DNA of 64,000 nt from Arenicola marina (lineage: Eukaryota > Annelida > Polychaeta > Arenicolidae), in contig OZ025249.1 in the NCBI GenBank assembly GCA_964019135.1, forward strand, positions 2,418,001-2,482,000. Reading direction: 5' to 3'. Under the pieces are notes generated by a model, which was not told the origin of the DNA, did not search any database, and saw only the letters and a list, made by a program, of their open reading frames with translations. A program made the position numbers and the translations under genes. Positions 481 to 19,305 of this stretch are shown here, piece by piece; within the stretch, counting starts at the first letter, position 1, and the number at the start of each line of letters is the position of its first letter.

Positions 481-1021
481 GTAAGTGGTGAGGGTGACAG
501 TGTGGTCAGTGGTGGGGGTGACTGTGGGGTAAGTGGTGGGGTGGGACTGTGGGGTAAGTGGTGGAGAATGACAGTGGGGTAAGTGCTGAGGGGCGACAGT
601 GGGGTAAATGGTGGGGGGTGAGAGTGGGGTAAGTGGTGAGGGTGACAGTGGGGTAAGTGGTGGGGGGTGACAGTGGGGTAAGTGGTGGGGATGGCAATGG
701 GTAAGTGGCGAGGGGTGACAATAGGGTAAGTGTTGGGGTGACAATGGGGTAAGTGGTGGCGGTGACAGTGGGGTAAGTAGTGTGGGTGACTGCGAGGTAA
801 GTGGGGGTGTCCGGCAGTGGGGTAAATTGGTCGGGGTGACAGTGGGGTAAGTGGTGGGGGTCAAGTGGCGTCAGTGGTGGAAGGGTCAGAGTGGGGATAA
901 GTGGTGGGGGTGACAGTTAGGTAAATGATGCGGGTGAAGTGGAGTGGGTGGTGGAAGGGTGAGAGTGGGTTACGTGATGAGGTGGGGTGAGAGTGGGGCA
1001 AGTGCTGGAGGGGTAACAGGC
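481..1021. repeat. Degenerate ~24-bp G-rich repeat at the start of intron 1, each unit a donor copy
   Basis: The intron opens with GTAAGTGGTG, and this is echoed about every 21-33 bp by near copies of ACAGTGGGGTAAGTGGTG (for example around 524, 549, 576, 623, 646, 669). The copied segment joins the last 8-10 bases of the exon (ACAGTGGG) to its splice donor, so the array is a series of degenerate duplications of the 5' splice junction. Copies diverge more here than in the following 73-bp array, which suggests an older or decaying edge. The + strand is strongly G-rich. Confidence 0.8.
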
Positions 1022-4000
1022 GGCTAGGTGGTGGGAGGTGACAGTGTGGTGAGTGGAGGGGGTGGGGTCATTGACTCCAGCATGGACTACAGGCGGGAAG
1101 TGGTGGGAGGTGACAGTGTGGTGAGTGGAGGGGGTGGATTCATTGACTCCAGCATGGACTACAGGCGGGAAGTGGTGGGAGGTGACAGTGTGGTGAGTGG
1201 CGGGGGCGGGGTCATTGACTACAGCATGGACTACAGTCGGGTAGGTGGTGGGAGGTGACTGTGTGGTGAGTGGTGGGGGCGGGGTCATTGACTCCAGCAT
1301 GGACTACAGTCGGGTAGGTGGTGGGAGGTGTCAGTGTGGTGAGTGGTGGGGGCGGTGTCATTGACTACAGCATGGACTACAGTCGGGTAGGTGGTGGGAG
1401 GTGACAGTGTGGTGAGTGGCGGGGGCGGGGTCATTGACTCCAGCATGGACTACAGTCGGGTAGGTGGTGGGAGGTGACAGTGTGGTGAGTGGCGGGGGCG
1501 GGGTCATTGACTACAGCATGGACTACAGTCGGGTAGGTGGTGGGAGGTGACAGTGTGGTGAGTGGCGGGGGCGGGGTCATTGACTCCAGCATGGACTACA
1601 GTCGGGTAGGTGGTGGGAGGTGACAGTGTGGTGAGTGGCGGGGGCGGGGTCATTGACTCCAGCATGGACTACAGTCGGGTAGGTGGTGGGAGGTGACAGT
1701 GTGGTGAGTGGTGGGGGCGGGGTCATTGACTCCAGCATGGACTACAGGCGGGTAGGTGGTGGGAGGTGACAGTGTGGTGAGTGGTGGGGGCGGGGTCATT
1801 GACTCCAGCATGGACTACAGGCGGGTAGGTGGTGGGAGGTGACAGTGTGGTGAGTGGCGGGGGCGGGGTCATTGACTACAGCATGGACTACAGTCGGGTA
1901 GGTGGTGGGAGGTGACAGTGTGGTGAGTGGCGGGGGCGGGGTCATTGACTACAGCATGGACTACAGGCGGGTAGGTGATGGGAGGTGACAGTGTGGTGAG
2001 TGGTGGGGGCGGGGTCATTGACTCCAGCATGGACTACAGTCGGGTAGGTGGTGGGAGGTGACAGTGTGGTGAGTGGTGGGGGCGGGGTCATTGACTACAG
2101 CATGGACTACAGTCGGGTAAGTGGTGGGAGGTGACAGTGTGGTGAGTGGTGCGGGCGGGGTCATTGACTCCAGCATGGACTACAGGCGGGTAGGTGGTGG
2201 GAGGTGACAGTGTGGTGAGTGGCGGGGGCGGGGTCATTGACTACAGCATGGACTACAGGCGGGTAGGTGGTGGGAGGTGACTGTGTGGTGAGTGGTGGGG
2301 GCGGGGTCATTGACTGCAGCATGGACTACAGTCGGTTAGGTGGTGGGAGGTGACAGTGTGGTGAGTGGTGGGGGCGGGGTCATTGACTCTAGCATGGACT
2401 ACAGGCGGGTAGGAGGTGGGAGGTGACAGTGTGGTGAGTGGTGGGGGCGGGGTCATTGACTGCAGCATGGACTACACTCGGGTAGGTGGTGGGAGGTGAC
2501 AGTGTGGTGAGTGGTGGGGGCGGGGTCATTGACTACAGCATGGACTACAGGCGGGTAGGTGGTGGGAGGTGACAGTGTGGTGAGTGGTGGGGGCGGGGTC
2601 ATTGACTCCAGCATGGACTACAGGCGGGTAAGTGGTGGGAGGTGAAAGTGTGGTCAGTGGCGGGGGCGGGGTCATTGACTCCAGCATGGATTACAGGCGG
2701 GTAGGTGGTGGGAGGTGACAGTGTGGTGAGTGGTGGCGGCGGGGTCATTGACTACAGCATGGACTACAGGCGGGTAGGTGGTGGGAGGTGACAGTGTGGT
2801 GAGTGGTGGGGGCGGGGTCATTGACTCTAGCATGGACTACAGGCGGGTAGGAGGTGGGAGGTGACAGTGTGGTGAGTGGTGGGGGCGGGGTCATTGACTA
2901 CAGCATGGACTACACTCGGGTAGGTGGTGGGAGGTGACAGTGTGGTGAGTGGTGGGGGCGGGGTCATTGACTACAGCATGGACTACAGGCGGGTAGGTGG
3001 TGGGAGGTGACAGTGTGGTGAGTGGTGGGGGCGGGGTCATTGACTCCAGCATGGACTACAGGCGGGTAAGTGGTGGGAGGTGAAAGTGTGGTCAGTGGCG
3101 GGGGCGGGGTCATTGACTCCAGCATGGATTACAGGCGGGTAGGTGGTGGGAGGTGACAGTGTGGTGAGTGGTGGCGGCGGGGTCATTGACTACAGCATGG
3201 ACTACAGGCGGGTAGGTGGTGGGAGGTGACAGTGTGGTGAGTGGTGGGGGCGGGGTCATTCACTCCAGCATGGACTACAGTCGGGTAGGTGGTGGGAGGT
3301 GACAGTGTGGTTAGTGGTGGGGGCGGGGTCATTGACTACAGCATGGACTACAGTCGGGTAGGTGGTGGGAGGTGACAGTGTGGTGAGTGGTGGGGGCGGG
3401 GTCATTCACTCCAGCATGGACTACAGTCGGGTAGATGGTGGGAGGTGACAGTGTGGTTAGTGGTGGGGGCGGGGTCATTGACTACAGCATGGACTACAGT
3501 CGGGTAGGTGGTGGGAGGTGACAGTGTGGTGAGTGGTGTGGGCGGGGTCATTGACTCCAGCATGGACTACAGGCGGGTAGGTGGTGGGAGGTGACAGTGT
3601 GGGGAGTGGTGGGGGCGGGGTCATTGACTACAGCATGGACTACAGGCGGGTAGGTGGTGGGAGGTGACAGTGTGGGGAGTGGCGGGGGCGGGGTCATTGA
3701 CTACAGCATGGACTACAGTCGGGTAGGTGGTGGGAGGTGACAGTGTGGTGAGTGGTGGGGGCGGGGTCATTGACTGCAGCATGGACTACAGGCGGGTAGG
3801 AGGTGGGAGGTGACAGTGTGATGAGTGGTGGGGGCGGGGTCATTGACTCCAGCATGGACTACAGGCGGGTAGGAGGTGGGAGGTGACAGTGTGGTGAGTG
3901 GTGGGGGCGGGGTCATTGACTCCAGCATGGACTACAGGCGGGTTGGATGGTTGGAGGTGAAAGTGTGGTGAGTGGTGGGGGCGGGGTCATTGACTACAGC

Positions 4001-4317
4001 ATAGACTACAGTCGGGTAGATGGTGGGAGGTGATAGTTTGGTGAGTGGTGTGGGCGGGGTCATTGACTACAGCATGGACTACAGTCGGGTAGATGGTGGG
4101 AGGTGACTGTGTGTTGAGTGGTGGGGGCGGGGTCATTGAGTCCAGCATGGACTACAGTCGGGTAGGTGGTGGGAGGTGACAGTGTGGTGAGTGGCGGGGG
4201 CGGGGTCATTGACTCCAGCATGGACTACAGGCGGGTAGGTTGTGGGAGGTGGTAGTGTGGTGAGTGGTGGGGGCGGGGTCATTGAGTCCAGCATGGACTA
4301 CAGTCGGGCAAGTGATG
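1022..4317. repeat. 73-bp G-rich minisatellite of intron 1 (about 45 copies)
   Basis: About 45 copies run from the CATGGACTACAG at 1081 to the one at 4292. Spacing is 72 bp for the first copies and 73 bp afterwards. Each unit combines a ~25-bp half (GTAGGTGGTGGGAGGTGACA...) with a ~48-bp half (GTGAGTGGTGGGGGCGGGG... then TCATTGACTCCAGCATGG). Both halves start with a donor-like motif (GTAGGT, GTGAGT) preceded by exon-end-like bases such as CTACAGTCGG. The unit therefore looks built from two of the shorter repeats upstream plus extra sequence. G runs lie on the + (non-template) strand throughout. Larger blocks are duplicated inside the array: the stretch around 2370-2760 closely resembles 2810-3190. 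Confidence 0.88.
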
Positions 4318-4443
4318 AAAATGGATGGAGGAGTAGTTGCGATTGCAGGCGTAGGAGGAGTCACACTTGATCACGTCACGTGACCATGCCAGGTTTCAAT
4401 GGGGTAACCTATACCTGACTCTATTTGTTCCCCCCCCCCCCAG
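4318..4443 (+). other. Unique 3' end of intron 1 with poly-C splice acceptor
   Basis: The 73-bp repeat ends here and about 126 bp of single-copy sequence leads to the acceptor. The polypyrimidine tract is CTATTTGTT followed by a run of 12 C (4430-4441), with AG at 4442-4443. The next exon starts at 4444. A possible branch site lies in ACCTGACTC near 4412-4422, which is inference. Confidence 0.7.
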
Positions 4444-4512
4444 CACTTGGAGGGATTCCTAGCCGCCCACCCTCCCCTTGGCATCGTGGTCACAGCCTTG
4501 GTCATCATCAAT
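4444..4512 (+). CDS. FRRS1: FRRS1-like exon b: HPPLG haem-ligand motif and start of next helix
   Basis: This exon encodes 23 residues, HLEGFLAAHPPLG then IVVTALVIIN. The His of HPPLG is a conserved haem ligand of the b561 family, and the following hydrophobic stretch begins a transmembrane helix completed by the next exon (PIMAAC). The donor is GTAAGT at 4513. The exon's last ~21 bases (ACAGCCTTGGTCATCATCAAT, written here in full only to 4512) are repeated with the donor in 48 further copies downstream. Because the repeat is 48 bp, the exon frame stays open through the whole array to a TGA at 6904-6906. The gapless extension is best read as intron, since splicing at 4513 restores the family sequence directly in the exon at 6995. 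Confidence 0.85.
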
Positions 4513-6830
4513 GTAAGTCTCTTCATGTTTAACATTAACACAGCCTTGGTCATCATCAATGTAAGTCCCTTCATGTTTAACATTGACACAGCCTTGGTCA
4601 TCATCAATGTAAGTCCCTTCATGTTTAACATTGACACAGCCTTGGTCATCATCAATGTAAATCCCTTCATGTTTAACATTGACACAGCCTTGGTCATAAT
4701 CAATGTAAGTCCCTTCATGTTTAACATTGACACAGCCTTGGTCATCATCAATGTAAGTCCCTACATGTTTAACATTGACACAGCCTTGGTCATCATCAAT
4801 GTAAGTCTCTTCATGTTTAGCATTAACACAGCCTTGGTCATCATCAATGTAAGTCCCTTCATGTTTAACATTGACACAGCCTTGGTCATCATCAATGTAA
4901 GTCCCTTCATGTTTAACATTGACACAGCCTTGGTCATCATCAATGTGAGTCCCTTCATGTTTAACATTGACACAGCCTTGGTCATCATCAATGTAAGTCC
5001 CTTCATGTTTAACATTGACACAGCCTTGGTCATCATCAATGTAAGTCCCTTCATGTTTAACATTGACACAGCCTTGGTCATCATCAATGTGAGTCCCTTC
5101 ATGTTTAACATTGACACAGCCTTGGTCATCATCAATGTAAGTCCCTTCATGTTTAACATTGACACAGCCTTGGTCATCATCAATGTAAGTCCCTTCATGT
5201 TTAACATTGACACAGCCTTGGTCATCATCAATGTAAGTCTCTTCATGTTTAACATTGACACAGCCTTGGTCATCATCAATGTAAGTCCCTACATGTTTAA
5301 CATTGACACAGCCTTGGTCATCATCAATGTAAGTCCCTTCATGTTTAACATTGACACAGCCTTGGTCATAATCAATGTAAGTCTCTTCATGTTTAACATT
5401 AACACAGCCTTGGTCATCATCAATGTAAGTCCCTTCATGTTTAACATTGACACAGCCTTGGTCATCATCGATGTAAGTCCCTTCATGTTTAACATTGACA
5501 CAGCCTTGGTCATCATCAATGTAAGTCCCTTCATGTTGAACATTGACACAGCCTTGGTCATAATCAATGTAAGTCCCTTCATGTTTAACATTGACACAGC
5601 CTTGGTCATCATCAATGTAAGTCCCTTCATGTTTAACATTGACACAGCCTTGGTCATCATTAATGTAAGTCCCTACATGTTTAACATTGACACAGCCTTG
5701 GTCATAATCAATGTAAGTCCCTTCATTATTAACATTGACACAGCCTTGGTCATCATCAATGTAAGTCCCTTCATGTTTAACATTGACACAGCCTTGGTCA
5801 TCAATGTAAGTCCCTTCATGTTTAACATTGACACAGCCTTGGTCATCATCATTGTAATTCCCTTCATGCTTAACATTGACACAGCCTTGGTCATCATCAA
5901 TGTAAGTCCCTTCATGTTTAACATTGACACAGCCTTGGTCATCATCAATGTAAGTCCCTTCATGTTTAACATTGACACAGCCTTGGTCATTAATGTAAGA
6001 CCCTTCATGTTTAACAATGACACAGCCTTGGTCATCATCAATGTAAATCTCTCCATGTTTAACATTGACACAGCCTTGGTCATCATCAATGTAAGTCTCT
6101 TCATGTTTAACATTGACACAGCCTTGGTTATCATCAATGTAAGTCCCTTCATGTTTAACATTGACACAGCCTTGGTCATCATCAATGTAAGTCCCTTCAT
6201 GTTTAACATTGACACAGCCTTGGTCATCATCACTGTAAGTCCCTTCATGTTTAACATTGACACAGCCTTGGTCATCATCAATGTAAGTCCCTTCATGTTT
6301 AACATTGACACAGCCTTGGTCATCATCACTGTAAGTCCCTTCATGTTTAACATTGACACAGCCTTGGTCATCATCGATGTAAGTCCCTCCATATTTAACA
6401 TTGACACAGCCTTGGTCATCATCGATGTAAGTCCCTCCATGTTTAACATTGACACAGCCTTGGTCATCATCGATGTAAGTCCCTTCATGTTTAACATTGA
6501 CACAGCCTTGGTCACCATCAATGTTAGTCTCTTCATGTTTAACATTGACACAGCCTTGGTCATCATCAATGTAAGTCCCTTCATGTTTAACATTGACACA
6601 GCCTTGGTCATCATCAATGTAAGTCCCTTCATGTTGAACATTGACACAGCCTTGGTCATCATCAATGTAAGTCCCTTCATGTTTAACATTGACACAGCCT
6701 TGGTCATCATCAATGTAAGTCCCTTCATGTTTAACATTGACACAGCCTTGGTCATCATCACTGTAAGTCCCTCCATGTTTAACATTGACACAGCCTTGGT
6801 CATCATCAATGTAAGTTACTTCAATGACGT
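4490..6830. repeat. 48-bp minisatellite spanning the exon b 3' end and donor (49 copies)
   Basis: Counting ACAGCC from 4492 to 6790 gives 2298 bp, or 48 steps of 48 bp less two 3-bp deletions (near 5797 and 5985). That makes 49 copies including the authentic exon end. Each unit has ~24 exon-derived bases (ending ATCATCAAT) and ~24 intron bases (GTAAGTCCCTTCATG...). Nearly every copy keeps GTAAGT; exceptions include GTGAGT (4945, 5089), GTAAAT (4657, 6051), GTAAGA (5995), GTAATT (5850) and GTTAGT (6522). The first copy is half exon and half intron, so the array grew from the splice junction itself. In the exon frame each unit reads TALVIINVSPFMFNID. Other frames and the opposite strand are also open, so openness alone is not evidence of coding. 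Confidence 0.95.
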
Positions 6831-6994
6831 ACACAACTGTTATAAACAGGAGTGGAATGACAAATACAACTGGCATAAACATGCCCTGAATTATACTGTT
6901 AAATGAACCTTAACTTATTTCTGATGATGAACCGCAAACTAGTGCTGGCAATGAGTCATGAATGAATACTGACAACACACCTTTTACCCTTCAG
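6831..6994 (+). other. Unique 3' end of intron 2 with splice acceptor
   Basis: About 165 bp of single-copy, AT-richer sequence follows the last degenerate 48-bp unit. The pyrimidine tract CTTTTACCCTTCAG (6981-6994) gives the acceptor. Reading through from exon b would stop at TGA 6904-6906 inside this stretch. Confidence 0.7.
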
Positions 6995-7094
6995 CCCATC
7001 ATGGCGGCCTGCCGGCCACATCCGGGCACTTCAAAGAGGACCATGTTTAACTGGGCGCATTGGGCAGTGGCCAACCTGGCCCTCATACTGGCCG
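6995..7094 (+). CDS. FRRS1: FRRS1-like exon c: NWAHW haem-ligand helix
   Basis: The exon is 100 bp, entering in phase 0 and leaving one base for the next exon. It encodes PIMAACRPHPG, then TSKRTMFNWAHWAV and NLALILAG (the last residue is split by the intron). The short basic loop RPHPGTSKR, followed by FNWAHW, is the most diagnostic FRRS1-type motif in the window; the His of NWAHW is a haem ligand. The donor is GTAAGT at 7095. As with exon b, the last 19 exon bases and the donor form the unit of the following 36-bp minisatellite. Confidence 0.87.
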
Positions 7095-10000
7095 GTAAGT
7101 GTGTCTACCACCTGGCCCTCATACTGGCCGGTAAGTGTGTCTACCACCTGGCCCTCATACTGGCCGGTAAGTGTATCTACCACCTGGCCCTCATACTGGC
7201 CGGTAAGTGTGTCTACCTCCTGGCCCTCATACTGGCCGGTAAGTGTATCTACCACCTGGCCCTCATACTGGCCGGTAAGTGTGTCTACCACCTGGCTCCC
7301 ATACTGGCCGGTAAGTGAGTCTACCACCTGGCTCCCATACTGGCCGGTAAGTGTGTCTACCACCTGGCCCTCATGCTGGCCGGTAAGTGTGTCTACCACC
7401 TGGCCCCCATACTGGCCGGTAAGTGAGTCTACCACCTGGCCCCCATACTGGCCGGTAAGTGTGTCTACCACCTGGCCCTCATACTGGCCGGTAAGTGTCT
7501 CTACCGCCTGGCCCTCATACTGGCCGGTAAGTGTGTCTACCACCGGTCCTCATACTGGCCGGTAAGTGTGTCTACCACCTGGCCCTCATACTGGCCGATA
7601 AGTGTGTCTACCACCTGGCCCTCATACTGGCCGGTAAGTGTCTCTACCACCTGGCCCCCATACTGGCCGGTAAGTGTGTCTACCACCTGGCTCCCATACT
7701 GGCCGGTAAGTGAGTCTACCACCTGGCTCCCATACTGGCCGGTAAGTGTGTCTACCACCTGGCCCTCATGCTGGCCGGTAAGTGTGTCTACCACCTGGCC
7801 CCCATACTGGCCGGTAAGTGAGTCTACCACCTGGCCCCCATACTGGCCGGTAAGTGTGTCTACCACCTGGCCCTCATACTGGCCGGTAAGTGTCTCTACC
7901 GCCTGGCCCTCATACTGGCCGGTAAGTGTCTCTACCGCCTGGCCTTCATACTGGCCGGTAAGTGTATCTACCACCTGTCCCCCATACTGGCCGGTAAGTG
8001 TGTCTACCACCTGGCCGGTAAGTGTGTGTACCAACTGGCCCTCATACTGGCCGGTAAGTGTGTCTACCACCGGTCCTCATACTGGCCGGTAAGTGTGTCT
8101 ACCACCTGGCCCTCATACTGGCCGGTAAGTGTATCTACCACCTGGCCCTCATACTGGCCGGTAAGTGTCTCTACCACCTGGCCCCCATACTGGCCGGTAA
8201 GTGTGTCTACCACCTGGCCCCCATACTGGGCTGTAAGTGTGTCTACCACCTGTCCCTCATACTGGCCGGTAAGTGTGTCTACCACCTGGCTCCCATACTG
8301 GCCGGTAAGTGTGTCTACCACCTGGCTCCCATACTGGGCGGTAAGTGTGTCTACCACCTGTCCTTCATACTGGCCGGTAAGTGTGTCTACCACCCGGCCC
8401 CCATACTGGCCGGTAGGTGAGTCTACCACCTGGCCCCCATACTGGCCGGTAAGTGTGTCTACCACCTGGCCCTCATACTGGCCGGTAAGTGTCTCTACCG
8501 CCTGGCCTTCATACTGGCCGGTAAGTGCATCTACCACCTGGCCCCCATACTGGCCGGTAAGTGTGTCTACCACCTGGCCGGTAAGTGTGTGTACCAACTG
8601 GCCCTCATACTGGCCGGTAAGTGTGTCTACCACCGGTTCTCATACTGGCCGGTAAGTGTGTCTACCACCGGCTCTCATACTGGCCGGTAAGTGTATCTAC
8701 CACCTGGCCCTCATACTGGCCGGTAAGTGTGTGTACCACCTGATCCTCATACTGGCCGGTAAGTGTATCTACCACCCGGCCCCCATACTGACCGGTAAGT
8801 GTGTCTACCACCGTCCCTCATACTGGCCGGTAAGTGTGTCTACCACCTGGCCCTCATGCTGGCCGGTAAGTGTGTCTACCACCTAGCCCTCATACTGGCC
8901 GGTAAGTGTGTCTACCACCTGACCCCATACTAGCCGGTAAGTGTGTCTACCACCTGGCCCCCATACTGGCCGGTAAGTGTGTCTACCACCTGGTCCCCAT
9001 ACTGGCCGGTAAGTGTGTCTACCACCTGGCCCCCATACTGGCCGGTAAGTGTATCTACCACCTGGCCCTCATACTGGCCGGTAAGTGTATCTACCACCTG
9101 GCCCCCATACTGGCCGGTAAGTGTGTCTACCACCTGGCTTCCATACTGGCCGGTAAGTGTGTCTACCACCGCCCCTCATACTGGCCGGTAAGTGTGTCTA
9201 CCACCGGCCCTCATACTGGCCGGTAAGTGTATCTACCACCTGGCCCTCATACTGGCCGGTAAGTGTGTCTACCACCTGGCCCTCATACTGGCCGGTAAGT
9301 GTGTCTACCACCCGGCCCCCATACTGGCCGGTAAGTGTGTCTACCACCTGGCCCTCATGCTGGCCGGTAAGTGTGTCTACCACCTAGCCCTCATACTGGC
9401 CGGTAAGTGTGTCTACCACCTGGCCCCCATACTGGCCGGTAGGTGTGTCTACCACCTGGCCCCCATACCGGCCGGTAAGTGTGTCTACCACCTGGCCCCC
9501 ATACTGGCCGGTAAGTGTGTCTACCACCTGGCCCTCATACTGGCCGGTAAGTGTATCTACCACCCGGCCCCCATACTGGCCGGTAAGTGTGTCTACCACC
9601 TGGCTCCCATACTGGGCGGTAAGTGTGTCTACCACCTGGCCCCCATACTAGCCGGTAAGTGTGTCTACCACCTGGCCCCCATACTGGCCGGTAAGTGTGT
9701 CTACCACCTGGCCCCCATACTGGCCGGTAAGTGTGTCTACCACGTGGCCCCCATACTGGCCGGTAAGTGTGTCTACCACCGCCCCTCATACTGGCCGGTA
9801 AGTGTGTCTACCACCGGCCCTCATGCTGGCCGGTAAGTGTGTCTACCACCTAGCCCTCATACTGGCCGGTAAGTGTGTCTACCACCTGGCCCTCATACTG
9901 GCCGGTAAGTGTATCTACCACCCGGCCCCCATACTGGCCGGTAGGTGTGTCTACCACCTGGCCCCCATACCGGCCGGTAAGTGTGTCTACCACCTGGCCC

Positions 10001-10808
10001 TCATACTGGCCGGTAAGTGTGTCTACCACCGCCCCTCATACTGGCCGGTAAGTGTGTCTACCACCGGCCCTCATGCTGGCCGGTAAGTGTGTCTACCACC
10101 TAGCCCTCATACTGGCCGGTAAGTGTGTCTACCACCTGGCCCTCATACTGGCCGGTAAGTGTGTCTACCACCTGGCCCCCATACTGGCCGGTAAGTGTAT
10201 CTACCACCCGGCCCCCATACTGGCCGGTAGGTGTGTCTACCACCTGGCCCCCATACCGGCCGGTAAGTGTGTCTACCACCTGGCCCCCATACTGGCCGGT
10301 AAGTGTGTCTACCACCTGGCCCTCATACTGGCCGGTAAGTGTATCTACCACCCGGCCCCCATACTGGCCGGTAAGTGTGTCTACCACCTGGCCCCCATAC
10401 GGGCCGGTAAGTGTGTCTACCACCTGGCCCCCATACTGGCCGGTAAGTGTGTCTACCACCTGGCCCCATACTGGCCGGTAAGTGTGTCTACCACCTGGCC
10501 CTCACACTGGCCGGTAATTGTGTCTGCCACCTGGCCCTCATACTGGCCGGTAGGTGTGTCTACCACCCGGCCCCCATACTGGCCGGTAGGTGAGTCTACC
10601 ACCTGGCCCCCATACTGGCCGGTAAGTGTGTCTACCACCTGGCCGGTAAGTGTGTCTACCACCTGGCCCCCATACTGGCCGGTAAGTGTGTCTACCACCT
10701 GGCCCTCATACTGGCCGGTAAGTGTGTCTACCACCTGGCCCCCATGCTGGCCGGTAAGTGTGTCTACCACCTGTCCCTCATACTGGCCGGTAAGTGTGTC
10801 TCCCACAT
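7076..10808. repeat. 36-bp minisatellite spanning the exon c 3' end and donor (about 100 copies)
   Basis: The unit is CTGGCCCTCATACTGGCCG plus GTAAGTGTGTCTACCAC, 19 exon-derived and 17 intron-derived bases. The first copy is the real exon-intron junction. The array spans 7076 to about 10808, roughly 103 copies, with recurring variants: CTCC or CCCC for CCTC, a GTAAGTGAGTC form, 1-bp-shorter CACCGGCCC and CACCGCCCC forms, and truncated units (near 8000, 8570, 10640). GTAAGT is kept in the great majority, with occasional GTAGGT. In the exon frame units read HLALILAGKCVY until the first GTGAGTC variant creates a stop at 7316-7318. Multi-unit blocks recur: 7273-7560 resembles 7680-7950, and 9780-10000 resembles 10030-10290. 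Confidence 0.94.
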
Positions 10809-10942: not shown

Positions 10943-11098
10943 TTATCTGCATTGGCTTCGGTTTCTACATCCCGACGGTCGCGGCATTCGCTCCTGGATA
11001 TCTCTTCTGGATCTTCATCGGCATGATAGTCTTCCAGGCGCTCGTCTGGATCGTTCTGGACATCCACCGGTGTATGTCTAACAGCAGGACAAAGAAAG
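10943..11098 (+). CDS. FRRS1: FRRS1-like exon d: last b561-core helix and cytosolic basic tail
   Basis: The exon is 156 bp, entering and leaving in phase 1. It encodes VICIGFGFYIPTVAAFAPGY, then the hydrophobic helix LFWIFIGMIVFQALVWIVL and a polar end DIHRCMSNSRTKK. The first residues complete the helix begun in exon c. The spacing (haem helix, short loop with Pro/Gly, long helix, basic tail) matches the end of the b561 core in FRRS1-type proteins. The donor is GTGAGT at 11099. Unlike exons b and c, the exon end is not part of the following repeat. Confidence 0.83.
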
Positions 11099-11119
11099 GT
11101 GAGTCCGGATAACTGGCTG
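11099..11119 (+). promoter_or_regulatory. Intron 4 splice donor and short unique lead-in
   Basis: GTGAGT at 11099-11104 is the donor of exon d. About 20 unique bases follow before the 61-bp array begins with a diverged first unit (CTTAGCAGGGACATG). Confidence 0.7.
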
Positions 11120-14100
11120 GCCTTAGCAGGGACATGTGTTGGGGGCAATGAGGCCAGACACCCACCGAGATGTAACCTCGGCCATGGCAGGGACATGTGT
11201 TAGGGGCAATGAGGCCAGACACCCACCGAGATGTAACCTCGGCCATGACAGGGACATGTGTTAGGAGCAATGAAGCCAGACACCCACCAAGATGTAACCT
11301 CGGCCATGACAGGGACATGTGTTAGGGGCAATGAGGCCAGACACCCACCGAGATGCAACCTCGGCCATGACAGGGACATGTGTTAGGGGCAATGAGGCCA
11401 GACACCCACCGAGATGTAACCTCGGCCATGGCAGGGACATGTGTTAGTGGCAATGAGGCCAGACACCCACCGAGATGTAACCTCGGCCATGGCAGGGACA
11501 TGTGTTAGTGGCAATGAGGCCAGACACCCACCAAGATGTAACCTCAACCATGGCAGGGACATGTGTTAGTGGCAATGAGGCCAGACACCCACCAAGATGT
11601 AACCTCGGCCATGGCAGGGACATGTGTTGGGGGCAATGAGACCAGACACCCACCAAGATGTAACCTCGGCCATGGCAGGGACATGTGTTAGTGGCAATGA
11701 GGCCAGACACCCACCAAGATGTAACCTCAGCCATGGCAGGGACATGTGTTAGTGGCAATGAGGCCAGACACCCACCAAGATGTAACCTCGGCCATGGCAG
11801 GGACATGTGTTAGGGGCAATGAGGCCAGACACCCACCGAGATGTAACCTCGGCCATGGCAGGGACATGTGTTAGTGGCAATGAGGCCAGACACCCACCAA
11901 GATGTAACCTCAGCCATGGCAGGGACATGTGTTAGGGGCAATGAGGCCAGACACCCACCGAGATGTAACCTCGGCCATGGCAGGGACATGTGTTAGGGGC
12001 AATGAGACCAGACACCCATGGAGATGTAACCTCGGCCATGACAGGGACATGTGTTAGGGGCAATGAGGCCAGACACACGCCGAGATGTAACCTCGGCCAT
12101 GACAGGGACATGTGTTAGGGGCAATGAAGCCAGACACCCACCAAGATGTAACCTCGGCCATGGCAGGGACATGTGTTAGGGGCAATGAGGCTAGACACAC
12201 ACCAAGATGTAACCTCGGCCATGGCAGGGACATGTGTTAGGGGCAATGAAGCCAGACACCCACCAAGATGTAACCTCGGCCATGACAGGGACATGTGTTA
12301 GTGGCAATGAGGCCAGACACCCACCAAGATGTAACCTCGGCCATGACAGGGACATGTGTTAGGAGCAATGAGGCCAGGCACCCACCGAGATGTAACCTCG
12401 GCCATGGCAGGGACATGTGTTAGGGGCAATGAGGCTAGACACCCACCGAGATGTAACCTCGGCCATGGCAGGGACATGTGTTAGGGGCAATGAGACCAGA
12501 CACCCACCAAGATGTAACCTCGGCCATGGCAGGGACATGTGTTAGTGGCAATGAGGCCAGACACCCACCAAGATGTAACCTCGGCCATGGCAGGGACATG
12601 TGTCAGGGGCAATGAGGCTAGACACACACCAAGATGTAACCTCGGCCATGGCAGGGACATGTGTTAGGGGCAATGAAGCCAGACACCCACCAAGATGTAA
12701 CCTCGGCCATGACAGGGACATGTGTTAGTGGCAATGAGGCCAGACACCCACCAAGATGTAACCTCGGCCATGGCAGGGACATGGGTTAGGGGCAATGAAG
12801 CCAGACACCCACCAAGATGTAACCTCGGCCATGGCAGGGACATGTGTTAGGGGCAATGAGGCTAGACACACACCAAGATGTAACCTCGGCCATGGCAGGG
12901 ACATGTGTTAGGGGCAATGAAGCCAGACACCCACCAAGATGTAACCTCGGCCATGACAGGGACATGTGTTAGTGGCAATGAGGCCAGACACCCACCAAGA
13001 TGTAACCTCGGCCATGGCAGGGACATGTGTTAGGGGCAATGAAGCCAGACACCCACCAAGATGTAACCTCGGCCTTGACAGGGACATGTGTTAGGGCAAT
13101 GAGGCCAGACACCCACCGAGATGTAACCTCGGCCATCGCAGGGACATGTGTTAGTGGCAATGAGGCCAGACACCCACCAAGATGTAACCTCGGCCATGAC
13201 AGGAACATGTGTTAGGGGCAATGAGGCCAGACACCCAGCGAGATGTAACCTCGGCCATGGCAGGGACATGTGTTACAGGCAATGAGGCCAGACACCCACC
13301 AAGATGTAACCTCGGCCATGGCAGGGACATGTGTTAGGGCAATGAGGCCAGACACCCACCGAGATGTAACCTCGGCCATCGCAGGGACATGTGTTAGAGG
13401 CAATGAGGCCAGACACCCACCGAGATGTAACCTCGGCCATAGCAGGGACATGTGTTAGTGGCAATGAGGCCAGACACCCACCAAGATGTAATCTCGGCCA
13501 TGGCGGGGACATGTGTTAGGGGCAATGAGGCCAGACACCCACCGAGATGTAACCTCGGCCATGGCAGGGACATGTGTTAGGGGCAATGAGGCCAGACACC
13601 CACCAAGATGTAATCTCGGCCATGGCGGGGACATGTGTTAGGGGCAATGAGGCCAGACACCCACCAAGATGTAACCTCGGCCATGACAGGGACATGTGTT
13701 AGGGGCAATGAGGCCAGACACCCACCGAGATGTAACCTCGGCCATGACAGGGACATGTATTAAGGGCAATGAGGCCAGACACCCACCGAGATGTAACCTC
13801 GGCCATGACAGGGACATGTGTTAGAGGCAATGAGGCCAGACACACACCAAGATGTAACCACGACCATGACAGGGACATGTGTTAGGGGCAATGAGGCCAG
13901 ACACCCACCGAGATGTAACCTCGGCCATGACAGGGACATGTGTTAGGGGCAATGAGGCCAGACACCCACCGAGATGTAACCTCGGCCATGACAGGGACAT
14001 GTGTTAGGGGCAATGCGGCCAGACACCCACCGAGATGTAACCTCGGCCATGACAGGGACATGTGTTAGAGGCAATGAGGCCAGACACCCAGCAAGATGTA

Positions 14101-17100
14101 ATCTCGGCCATGGCGGGGACATGTGTTAGGGGCAATGAGGCCAGACACCCACCAAGATGTAACCTCGACCATGACAGGGACATGTGTTAGGGGCAATGAG
14201 GCCAGACACCCACCGAGATGTAACCTCGGCCATGGCAGGGACATGTGTTACAGGCAATGAGGCCAGACACCCACCAAGATGTAACCTCGGCCATGGCAGG
14301 GACATGTGTTAGTGGCAATGAGGCCAGACACCCACCAAGATGTAACCTCGGCCATGACAGGGACATGTGTTAGGGGCAATGAGGCCAGACACCCACCGAG
14401 ATGTAACCTCGGCCATGACAGGGACATGTGTTAGGGGCAATGAGGCCAGACACCCACCGAGATGTAACCTCGGCCATGGCAGGGACATGTGTTAGTGGCA
14501 ATGAGGCCAGACACCCACCGAGATGTAACCTCGGCCATGGCAGGGACATGTGTTAGTGGCAATGAGGCCAGACACCCACCAAGATGTAACCTCAGCCATG
14601 GCAGGGACATGTGTTAGTGGCAATGAGGCCAGACACCCACCAAGATGTAACCTCGGCCATGGCAGGGACATGTGTTAGGGGCAATGAGACCAGACACCCA
14701 CCAAGATGTAACCTCGGCCATGGCAGGGACATGTGTTAGGGGCAATGAGGCCAGACACCCACCGAGATGTAACCTCGGCCATGACAGGGACATGTGTTAG
14801 GGGCAATGAGGCCAGACACCCACCGAGATGTAACCTCGGCCATGACAGGGACATGTGTTAGGGGCAATGCGGCCAGACACCCACCGAGATGTAACCTCGG
14901 CCATGACAGGGACATGTGTTAGAGGCAATGAGGCCAGACACCCACCGAGATGTAATCTCGGCCATGGCGGGGACATGTGTTAGGGGCAATGAGGCCAGAC
15001 ACCCACCAAGATGTAACCTCGACCATGACAGGGACATGTGTTAGGGGCAATGAGGCCAGACACCCACCGAGATGTAACCTCGGCCATGGCAGGGACATGT
15101 GTTAGGGGCAATGAGGCCAGACACCCACCGAGATGTAACCTCGGCCATGGCAGGGACATGTGTTACAGGCAATGAGGCCAGACACCCACCAAGATGTAAC
15201 CTCGGCCATGGCAGGGACATGTGTTAGGGGCAATGAGGCAAGACACCCACCGAGATGTAACCGCGGCCATGGCAGGGACATGTGTTAGTGGCAATGAGGC
15301 CAGACACCCACCAAGATGTAACCTCGGCCATAGCAGGGACATGTGACAAGGGCAATGAGGCCAGACCCCCACCAGGATGTTACCTCGGTCATGGCAGGGA
15401 CATGTGTTAGGGGCAATGAGGCCAGACACCCACCGAGATGTAGCCTCGGCCATGACAGGGACATGCGTTAGGGCAATGAGGCCAGACACCCACCAAGATG
15501 CAACATCGGCCATGGCAGGGACATGTGTTGGGGGCAATGAGGCCAGACACACACCGAGATGTAACCTCGGCCATGGCAGGGACATGTGTTAGGGGCAATG
15601 AGGCCAGACACCCACCGAGATGTAACCTCGGCCATGACAGGGACATGTGTTAGAGGCAATGAGGCCAGACACCCACCGAGATGTAACCTCGGCCATGGCA
15701 GGGACATGTGTTAGTGGCAATGAGGCCAGACACCCACCGAGATGTAACCTCGGCCATGGCAGGGACATGTGTTAGTGGCAATGAAGCCAGACACCCACCA
15801 AGATGTAACCTCAGCCATGGCAGGGACATGTGTTAGTGGCAATGAGGCCAGACACCCACCAAGATGTAACCTCGGCCATGGCAGGGACATGTGTTAGGGG
15901 CAATGAGACCAGACACCCACCAAGATGTAACCTCGGCCATGGCAGGGACATGTGTTAGGGGCAATGAGGCCAGACACCCACCGAGATGTAACCTCGGCCA
16001 TGACAGGGACATGTGTTAGGGGCAATGAGGCCAGACACCCACCGAGATGTAACCTCGGCCATGACAGGGACATGTGTTAGGGGCAATGCGGCCAGACACC
16101 CACCGAGATGTAACCTCGGCCATGACAGGGACATGTGTTAGAGGCAATGAGGCCAGACACCCACCAAGATGTAACCTCGGCCATGGCAGGGACATGTGTT
16201 AGAGGCAATGAGGCCAGACACCCACCGAGATGTAACCTCGGCCATGGCAGGGACATGTGTTAGGGGCAATGAGGCCAGACACCCACCGAGATGTAACCTC
16301 GGCCATGGCAGGGACATGTGTTCGGGGCAATGAGACCAGACACCCACCAAGATGTAACCTCGGCCATGGCAGGGACATGTGTTAGTGGCAATGAGGCCAG
16401 ACACCCACCAAGATGTAACCTCGGCCATAGCAGGGACATGTGATAAGGGCAATGAGGCCAGACCCCCACCAGGATGTTACCTCGGTCATGGCAGGGACAT
16501 GTGTTAGGGGCAATGAGGCCAGACACCCACCGAGATGTAGCCTCGGCCATGACAGGGACATGTGTTAGGGGCAATGAGGCCAGACACCCACCAAGATGTA
16601 ACATCGGCCATGGCAGGGACATGTGTTGGGGGCAATGAGGCCAGACACACACCGAGATGTAACCTCGGCCATGGCAGGGACATGTGTTAGGGGCAATGAG
16701 GCCAGACACCCACCGAGATGTAACCTCGGCCATGACAGGGACATGTGTTAGTGGCAATGAGGCCAGACACCCACCAAGATGTAACCTCGACCATGACATG
16801 GACATGTGTTAAGGGCAATGAGGCCAGACACCCACCGAGATGTAACCTCGGCCATGGCAGGGACATGTGTTACAGGCAATGAGGCCAGACACCCACCAAG
16901 ATGTAACCTCGGCCATGGCAGGGACATGTGTTAGGGGCAATGAAGCCAGACACCCACCGAGATGTAACCTCGGCCATGACAGGGACATGTGTTAGGGGCA
17001 ATGAAGCCAGACACCCACCGAGATGTAACCTCGGCCATGGCAGGGACATGTGTTAGGGGCAATGAGACCAGACACCCACCGAGATGTAACCTCGGCCATG

Positions 17101-17272
17101 ACAGGGACATGTGTTACAGGCAATGAGGCCAGACACCCACCAAGATGTAACCTCGGCCATGACAGGGACATGTGTTAGGGGCAATGAAGCCAGACACCCA
17201 CCGAGATGTAACCTCGGCCATGGCAGGGACATGTGTTAGGGGCAATGAGACCAGACACCCACCAAGATGTAA
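11120..17272. repeat. 61-bp minisatellite of intron 4 (about 101 copies)
   Basis: GACATGTG recurs from 11131 to 17228, a distance of 6097 bp or 100 steps of 61 bp less 3 bases, so about 101 copies. The unit runs GGACATGTGTTAGGGGCAAT, then GAGGCCAGACACCCACCGAG, then ATGTAACCTCGGCCATGGCAG. Variants are limited (GTGG/GGGG, CAAG/CGAG, GACAGG/GGCAGG). Blocks of many units are duplicated: the segment with ACAAGGGCAATG, GACCCCCACCAGGATG and TAGCCTCGG near 15345-15445 recurs near 16440-16540. No canonical donor lies in the unit, but TGTAAC...GGCAG resembles a branch site plus acceptor. Confidence 0.94.
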
Positions 17273-17397
17273 CCAATCGCTCGTATCCTCGCCAATAACA
17301 CCTTCGCGTCGCAGGTCCTATACTCTGTCTGATGCTAGTTCTCACCCGAGCATAACCGATGTCCTGACTTAAGTCTCCCGCTTTCCGTGACTTGCAG
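17273..17397 (+). other. Unique 3' end of intron 4 with splice acceptor
   Basis: The last 61-bp unit breaks off at GATGTAACC (17266-17274). About 125 bp of single-copy sequence follows, ending CTTTCCGTGACTTGCAG (17381-17397). CCTGACTTAAG near 17363 could be the branch region. Confidence 0.7.
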
Positions 17398-17465
17398 AGA
17401 ACAACCTTCAGCTGAAGGACCGACAGGACATGGGCGAGCAGGTGCCACCCGCACCGACAAACACG
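17398..17465 (+). CDS. FRRS1: FRRS1-like exon e: hydrophilic linker
   Basis: The exon is 68 bp, entering in phase 1 and leaving in phase 0. It encodes ENNLQLKDRQDMGEQ, then VPPAPTNT: charged, then Pro/Thr-rich, with no membrane segment. It links the b561 core to the last helix. Recognition rests on flanking splice signals (CAG at 17395-17397, GTAAGG at 17466) and on phase agreement with both neighbours. This linker is poorly conserved in the family, so it adds little to the family call. Confidence 0.72.
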
Positions 17466-17682
17466 GTAAGGTTCGCCACGGCTCTAGGTAAAGTGGGTTA
17501 TGTCATGCGCTCTTTCCATTCTCGTTTTGTCTGGGTGCCGTAAACTGTATTATGGAGCTTGGCGTATTCAGATCAGTTCCAATTCACACTATGGCGGACT
17601 CAAGGCCATGTTTCGCTTCATGCTCAATTAAAACGAAACAAATCGACATGAAGGTAATGGTTGCGATATGTGTCTGTTGCAG
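17466..17682 (+). other. Short intron 5, no repeats
   Basis: A 217-bp intron from GTAAGG (17466) to TGTCTGTTGCAG (17671-17682). It is the only complete intron here without a minisatellite. Confidence 0.75.
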
Positions 17683-17772
17683 GGATCCACATTCCGCTAC
17701 TTCATGTTGGCAATCTTCATCCTGGGTACGCTGGGGTTCTTCCTGGCTATCGCCGTCCTCCTCTGTATCTGA
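17683..17772 (+). CDS. FRRS1: FRRS1-like final exon: C-terminal transmembrane helix and stop
   Basis: This exon encodes 29 residues, GSTFRYFMLAIFILG then TLGFFLAIAVLLCI, with TGA at 17770-17772. The run from YFMLAIF to AVLLCI is a single strongly hydrophobic helix that ends the protein almost immediately; FRRS1-type proteins also finish with an extra helix after the b561 core. The last ~58 coding bases, the stop and the first ~25 bases of 3'UTR form the unit of an 83-bp tandem block that continues downstream. The copies lie beyond the stop and out of frame with each other (83 is not a multiple of three), so they should be 3'UTR. Confidence 0.8.
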   Translation, partial: GSTFRYFMLAIFILGTLGFFLAIAVLLCI

Positions 17773-18030
17773 GGAGCACATCAATTGGTGACGTCATCTT
17801 CATCCTGGATACGCCCGGTTTCTTCCTGGCCATCACCGTCCTCCTCTGTATCTGAGGAGCACATCAATTGGTGACGTCATCTTCATCCTGGGTACGCCCG
17901 GTTTCTTCCTGGCCATCACCGTCCTCCTCTGTATCTGAGGAGCACATCAATTGGTGACGTCATCTTCATCCTGGGTACGCCCGGTTTCTTCCTGGCCATC
18001 ACCGTCCTCCTCTGTATCTGAGGAGCACAT
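17714..18030. repeat. 83-bp tandem quadruplication of the terminal coding segment and stop codon
   Basis: CTCTGTATCTGAGG occurs at 17761, 17844, 17927 and 18010, exactly 83 bp apart. The first copy is the real end of the gene. The three downstream copies are nearly identical to one another (ACGCCCGGTTTCTTCCTGGC) and differ from the exon copy (ACGCTGGGGTTCTTCCTGGC) at several positions. The unit carries CTTCATCCTGG, the helix-coding segment, TGA, then GAGCACATCAATTGGTGACG. The copies encode an FFLAITVLLCI version of the same helix end. Confidence 0.93.
17789..17962. promoter_or_regulatory. Three TGACGTCA palindromes at 83-bp spacing
   Basis: The 83-bp block carries a perfect TGACGTCA (CRE/ATF-type palindrome) at 17789-17796, 17872-17879 and 17955-17962. 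A degenerate TGACATCA follows at 18043. The sites sit in the presumed 3'UTR. Their presence is directly seen; any role in CREB/ATF binding is inference, and they may simply have been carried along with the duplication. Confidence 0.45.
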
Positions 18031-18479: not shown

Positions 18480-19305
18480 GGTAATATCCTTGATTGGTTG
18501 TCAAGATGGCACAGACAACAAAAGTTACATATAGTAATATTCTTGATTGGTTGTCAAGCTGACACAGACAACAATAGTGACATAGTAATATACTTGATTG
18601 GTTGTCAATATGACACAGACAACAATAGTGACATAGTAATATCCTTGATTGCTTGTCAATATGACACAGACAACAACAGTGACATAGTAATATCCTTGAT
18701 TGGTTGTCAATATGACACAGACAACAATAGTGACATAGTAATATCCTTGATTGGTTGTCAATATGACACAGACAACAATAGTGACATAGTAATATCCTTG
18801 ATTGGTTGTCAATATGACACAGACAACAATAGTGGCATAGTAATATCCTTGATTGGTTGTCAATATGACACAGACAACAATAGTGACATAGTAATATCCT
18901 TGATTGGTTGTCAATATGACACAGACAACAATAGTGACATAGTAATATCCTTGATTGGTTGTCAATATGACACAGACAACAATAGTGACATAGTAATATC
19001 CTTGATTGGTTGTCAATATGACACAGACAACAATAGTGACATAGTAATATCCTTGATTGCTTGTCAATATGACACAGAAAACAATAGTGACATAGCAATA
19101 TCCTTGATTGGTTGTCAATATGACACAGACAACAAAAGTGACATAGTAATATACTTGATTGGTTGCCAATATGACACAGACAACAATAGTGACATAGTAA
19201 TATCCTTGATTGGTTGTCAATATGACACAGACAACAATAGTGACATAGTAATATCCTTGATTGCATGTCAATATGACACAGACAACAATAGTGACATATC
19301 ATGGT
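18480..19305. repeat. 51-bp minisatellite in the 3' flank (16 copies)
   Basis: TTGATTG recurs from 18490 to 19257 (one 53-bp step, then 14 steps of 51 bp), giving 16 copies. The unit is TTGATTGGTTGTCAATATGA, then CACAGACAACAATAGTGACA, then TAGTAATATCC. Since 51 is 17 codons, several frames on both strands stay open (a 288-residue + frame, 286- and 248-residue - frames). None shows a non-repeat domain. Each unit contains ATTGG, the reverse of CCAAT. Confidence 0.93.

Follow-up and report, generated by a model that had tools for sequence, protein, structure and literature searches.

The window analysed here, a 64-kb stretch of the Arenicola marina genome (contig OZ025249.1), holds on its plus strand, between positions 394 and 17772, six coding exons of a gene for a ferric-chelate reductase 1-like protein, corresponding to the C-terminal cytochrome b561 part. 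Earlier exons of the gene lie outside the 64-kb window. Introns 1, 2 and 3, counted from the first visible coding exon, each contain their own minisatellite, the first unit of which begins 8, 22 and 21 nt inside the preceding exon, respectively, and takes in the splice donor. A similar array spans the stop codon of the same gene.

Gene structure and arrays at the splice donors

Exon ends were set by protein homology and splice-site reading. All six exons are on the plus strand. Coding exon 1 (394–480), placed by homology, is preceded by an acceptor ending in ttccag, ends in phase 0 and is followed by the donor GTAAGT. Exon 2 occupies 4444–4512, and exon 3 was assigned to 6995–7094 by sequence reading combined with homology. 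Exons 4 and 5 lie at 10943–11098 and 17398–17465, and the last coding exon (17683–17772) ends with a TGA codon. The spliced protein of 189 residues aligned at 40% over 98% with a putative ferric-chelate reductase 1 of sea urchin (P0010; E 9.6e-35), and relatives from molluscs and annelids were recovered by a two-sequence profile search. The sea urchin protein was the best named hit of these length-limited searches, and none of their hits was nearly identical. A close relative (P0001) scored above the Pfam cut-off for Cytochrom_B561; the 189-residue fragment encoded in the window gave no Pfam family above cut-off. A PDB sequence search with the fragment returned no match up to E = 1, and no Rfam match was found at the gathering threshold. 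In ferric-chelate reductase 1 a Reeler/DOMON region lies N-terminal to the b561 part.

The homology analysis used 11 homologs, which were all that the length- and shared-word-limited searches returned, and others may exist. At the exon 2/3 and exon 3/4 junctions the alignment showed an indel within 6 residues in none of the 11, and all 11 continue from exon 2 into exon 3 without an insert. The exon 1/2 junction falls in a loop where homolog length varies by 0–4 residues. As neither junction carries an insert in any homolog, these two arrays, in introns 2 and 3, appear to be intronic, and splicing that removes them would fit the homology.

Tandem arrays were called with Tandem Repeats Finder (TRF) on one assembled haplotype. 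Intron 1 starts with a degenerate array at 473–1064 on the plus strand, with a consensus of 24 nt (TRF period 25, 24.0 copies, 74% matches). The true donor at 481 lies within the start of this array, and GTAAGT occurs 13 times in the 473–1064 stretch. It is followed by a homogeneous 73-bp array (1016–4308, plus strand; TRF 45.1 copies, 94% matches), the unit of which carries a diverged copy of the exon 1 end and donor. In alignments against shuffled sequences, the 73-bp unit matched exon 1 plus 8 intronic nt with p = 0.002–0.003, and exon 1 plus 40 intronic nt with a score of 40, compared to shuffle maxima of 21–23; the match to exon 1 sequence alone was not significant (p about 0.1). The earlier note on this DNA had listed the repeat of intron 1 as 24/73 bp. 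Both units are indeed present, but in succession, with the degenerate 24-bp units first and the 73-bp array after them, rather than as one array.

Intron 2 contains 49 copies of a 48-bp unit (4491–6823, plus strand; TRF 48.7 copies, 95%), the first 22 nt of which are exon 2 sequence, and intron 3 contains about 105 copies of a 36-bp unit (7074–10806, plus strand; TRF 105.1 copies, 91%) starting with 21 nt of exon 3. The true donors at 4513 and 7095 lie in copy 1 of these arrays. The consensus units match the exon ends without a mismatch (22/22 and 21/21 nt), with p at the lowest value that 500 shuffles allow (0.002). These results bear out the proposal of the earlier note that three neighbouring introns have minisatellites copying their own donors, and confirm the donor positions it had given, 481, 4513 and 7095. 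The defining trait of the mirage minisatellites of amphioxus, a tandem unit lying across an exon–intron boundary, is present in introns 1–3.

The series ends there. The note had counted three or four such introns in a row, of which three are confirmed. The array of intron 4, in which a 61-bp unit is repeated 101 times (11119–17274, plus strand), begins 20 nt into the intron and does not span the donor, no GTAAGT or GTGAGT occurs in it, and its unit has no detectable similarity to exon 4 (p = 0.23). Intron 4 was therefore ruled out as a fourth donor case and served for comparison. TRF found no array in intron 5 (17466–17682), and introns 1–4 are non-repetitive outside their arrays.

An 83-bp array of 3.8 copies (17713–18030, plus strand) spans the stop codon. 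Its unit comprises the final 19 codons together with the stop codon, plus 23 nt of the 3' untranslated region (UTR), and the coding copy is the first copy. Copies 2–4 have in common a proline and a threonine that are absent from the coding copy, and an aspartate is found in copy 2 only. The array has the same geometry as those at the donors, at a boundary that contains no donor. The region described in the earlier note ends 5' of this array.

Three further arrays occur in the window. A 38-bp array at positions 1–367, with 9.7 copies visible, lies in the intron before exon 1 and ends about 26 nt 5' of the acceptor; its left end and the donor of its intron are outside the window, and the repeat has no significant similarity to 368–480 (p = 0.10). 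On the other side of the gene, a 51-bp unit is present 16 times 3' of the stop codon (18481–19298), possibly within the 3' UTR; it shows no similarity to the stretch preceding the array (p = 0.56). Most of the remaining window, from 2.6 kb past the stop codon, is taken up by 43.6 kb of satellite DNA (20368–63991) with a 52-bp unit in about 839 copies, the consensus of which has no significant similarity to the 3' end of the gene (p = 0.76).

Probable origin and turnover of the arrays

The arrays at the donors and the stop codon are best explained as mirage-type minisatellites that arose by ordinary tandem duplication and array turnover and were tolerated wherever the first copy remains functional. 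We assign this explanation a probability of roughly 0.7. A short tandem duplication would by chance lie across the boundary at the 3' side of a coding segment, either a splice donor or a stop codon. Such a duplication would be harmless since the first copy still yields the right product: the true donor would remain joined to its exon, with all further copies falling in the intron or, at the stop codon, in the 3' UTR. The arrays would then grow and homogenise by slippage, unequal exchange or conversion, involving single units as well as multi-unit blocks.

The internal structure of the arrays bears on the last step. In introns 1–4, copies at larger lags are nearly as similar to each other as neighbouring copies are. 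Introns 1, 3 and 4 have exact recurring blocks of 4, 6 and 5 units, respectively, whereas in intron 2 only a block of 3 units with one variant recurs. The recurring blocks and the similarity at larger lags suggest that turnover involves whole blocks in addition to single units.

A different origin would be a DNA process acting at exon–intron junctions, such as R-loop formation, pausing or break repair at donors, that seeds duplications there. In its favour, the arrays of introns 1–3 span donors, and that of intron 4 begins only 20 nt into its intron. The chance of this donor overlap was calculated by uniform placement with each array collapsed to one unit, giving introns 1–4 of about 151, 196, 151 and 204 bp. 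Under this model, the probability that at least three of four arrays span a donor was 0.021 without a filter and 0.039 if acceptor-spanning placements were barred. Barring also the last 40, 60 or 100 nt of the intron raised it to 0.080, 0.124 or 0.39. For introns 1–3 all spanning the donor the corresponding values were 0.0048 unfiltered, 0.0085 with acceptor-spanning barred, and 0.020, 0.034 or 0.15 with the last 40, 60 or 100 nt barred in addition. If donor and acceptor sides are equal, the chance that all three arrays fall on the donor side is 0.125. All these values are post hoc, concern four arrays and assume the collapsed length to be ancestral. The tolerance filter on these short introns takes away much, not necessarily all, of the surprise of the donor overlap.

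Base composition gave a mixed picture. The coding strand of intron 1 is G-rich, its two parts having GC skews of +0.79 and +0.56, which would suit a junction process. The skews of introns 2 and 3 are of opposite sign (−0.26 and −0.16), which argues against one R-loop-type cause, and a common R-loop or G-quadruplex (G4) cause is unsupported given this difference between the donor arrays. Furthermore, a like array lies across the stop codon, a boundary that lacks a donor, and no process targeted at donors need be invoked. Being in the same gene, the stop-codon array is an internal control by which tolerance owing to a working copy 1 can be told apart from seeding driven by donors. We consider a junction-directed process unlikely. 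The earlier note had offered both kinds of mechanism, and donor-preserving tolerance fits better, while the donor-directed process is dispensable in view of the stop-codon array and the skew signs.

Several points weigh against tolerated ordinary duplication. Splicing at copy 1 only, the selection filter and the turnover mechanism are all inferred from genomic DNA. The low unfiltered chance of the donor overlap (0.021; 0.0048 without intron 4, a value that rises to 0.02–0.03 with the last 40–60 nt barred) points to a possible extra donor bias beyond the tolerance filter. At the stop codon there is only one array, and it has four copies. Finally, acceptor-side mirages, which a simple filter would disfavour, are described in amphioxus (PMC3087553).

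Copied donors and reading frames

The donor copies in the arrays are mostly intact. In intron 2 the GT is intact in 49/49 copies and GTAAGT in 42/49; in intron 3 the numbers are 104/105 and 97/105, the 106th row of the intron 3 unit table being a 2-nt remnant. Ranked by divergence among all hexamer windows of the unit, the donor hexamer takes position 28 of 48 in intron 2 and 7 of 36 in intron 3. Decoy donors are neither retained nor lost unusually, and with such ordinary ranks selection for or against them is unsupported. Over −22 to +6, 28 of the 49 copies in intron 2 are identical to copy 1, copy 1 counted, so that 27 of the 48 decoys match the true donor in this segment; over −21 to +6 the same holds for 21 of 106 rows in intron 3, again with copy 1 counted. 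The gene thereby offers a natural test of donor choice by the spliceosome. If only copy 1 is used, position beside a defined exon would outweigh local sequence in donor choice.

Another possibility is a frame-safe filter: downstream donors would sometimes be used, so that the surviving units are multiples of 3 and have no in-frame stop. The units that span donors measure 24, 48 and 36 bp, each divisible by 3, which has a chance of 0.037. Compared with the units of 61, 83, 51, 38 and 52 bp the excess gave a Fisher p of 0.071, or 0.048 when the 73-bp unit is placed among the others. Read on from the exon, introns 1, 2 and 3 reach a stop after 99, 2391 and 221 nt, respectively, and in intron 2 all 49 donor-like sites share one frame that stays open for those 2391 nt past the donor. 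On the other side, the pattern rests on three units and was noticed post hoc, the 73-bp unit contains a donor yet is not a multiple of 3, and the intron 3 donors are distributed over the frames as 33/36/36, with the first frame change at copy 14 in addition to the in-frame stop. Published globin units of 157 bp and 150–160 bp also violate the rule (PMC3087553). A strict multiple-of-3 rule is unsupported, given the 73-bp donor-bearing unit and the frame changes and stop in intron 3; the multiple-of-3 unit lengths are a lead only. We regard such a frame-safe filter as quite improbable, clearly more so than a junction process.

The variants within the arrays do not show the codon constraint that use of the repeats in protein would bring. 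Distinct point variants that are synonymous in the frame of the exon number 5 of 25 in intron 2, where 29 of the 144 possible changes are synonymous, and 5 of 31 in intron 3, where the possible changes give 29 of 108. One intron 3 variant creates a stop, as 4 of the 108 possible changes would. The variant pattern is neutral-looking in both introns, with no codon-level constraint or sign of translation.

From 4444 to 6904, a single open frame runs through exon 2 and every one of the 49 copies of the 48-bp unit. Only 1 of 144 single-base changes in the 48-bp unit yields a stop, and both length variants of the unit are 3 nt shorter. The 49 donors of intron 2 could be imagined as the interchangeable rungs of a ladder, all keeping the frame and none meeting an in-frame stop before 6904, that generates a protein of variable length, an idea that we hold to be highly improbable. 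If it were true, use of donor k in intron 2 would add (k−1) × about 16 residues to the b561 core while escaping nonsense-mediated decay, and more broadly frame-safe units would be a survival rule for donor arrays.

It is similarly hard to credit that the repeats are not intronic at all and that the 48-bp array, along with others, encodes part of a repetitive protein. Exon 2 and the array do lie in an open frame of 832 codons (4408–6906) encoding a 16-residue repeat. However, an insert at the array site is found in 0/11 homologs, the unit variants lack codon constraint, the reading of intron 3 soon meets its in-frame stop, and a minus-strand frame of the 48-bp array is open as well, over 816 codons. 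Since the minus strand is also open and so few changes can make a stop, the open frame is a property of the 48-bp unit. A coding origin of the 48-bp array was rejected on the insert-free homologs, the absence of codon constraint and the open minus strand. Least credible of all is that the long arrays were made or inflated by misassembly: copy numbers from one haplotype's assembly could be wrong, but the copies have their own variants (distinct units 24/49 in intron 2, 51/106 in intron 3 and 56/101 in intron 4), the window contains no N, and an inflated copy number would not make the units donor-spanning.

Comparison with known boundary-spanning repeats

In the amphioxus Adh3 gene and the globin genes BflGb6 and BflGb9, so-called mirages are tandem duplications over exon–intron boundaries, on the donor as well as the acceptor side, that show length instability (PMC3087553). 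Adh3 and globin data cited in the same report indicate that mirages leave regular splicing undisturbed, and the mechanism generating them is termed unclear there. The earlier note's reference to such minisatellites in amphioxus was right in kind (PMC3087553, PMC3902484), although both donor and acceptor boundaries are duplicated in that animal. In the literature searched, which was covered mostly at the level of listings, three consecutive donor-spanning arrays or a counterpart at a stop codon were not met.

Tandem duplication across exon–intron boundaries is also known from potato, where an intron gain in RdRp copied the splice signals in the same way (PMC4974935). In that case one duplication makes a new intron, whereas here many copies lengthen existing introns. 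In lancelet PGBD5, alongside which troponin C is cited, tandem repeats of 60 and 108 bp abut or overlap splice sites at more than one place in the gene, as in the Arenicola gene (PMC3902484). The PGBD5 repeats have 2–7 imperfect copies, compared to 49 and about 105 here, and one of them overlaps exons annotated in the gene model.

The closest likeness is to the amphioxus mirages. Both are minisatellite-like boundary duplications that copy splice signals, with unrelated units at different sites, and the unit sizes of 10–72 bp in Adh3 overlap those found here (PMC3087553). The differences are that both sides of the boundary are affected in the amphioxus globins, whereas all three arrays here are on the donor side, and that three consecutive introns are involved, with 49 and about 105 copies against 3 and 6 in the BflGb6 haplotypes (PMC3087553). 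The gene described here is of the same kind as the known amphioxus mirages, with far more copies than the published counts cited above and with three introns running.

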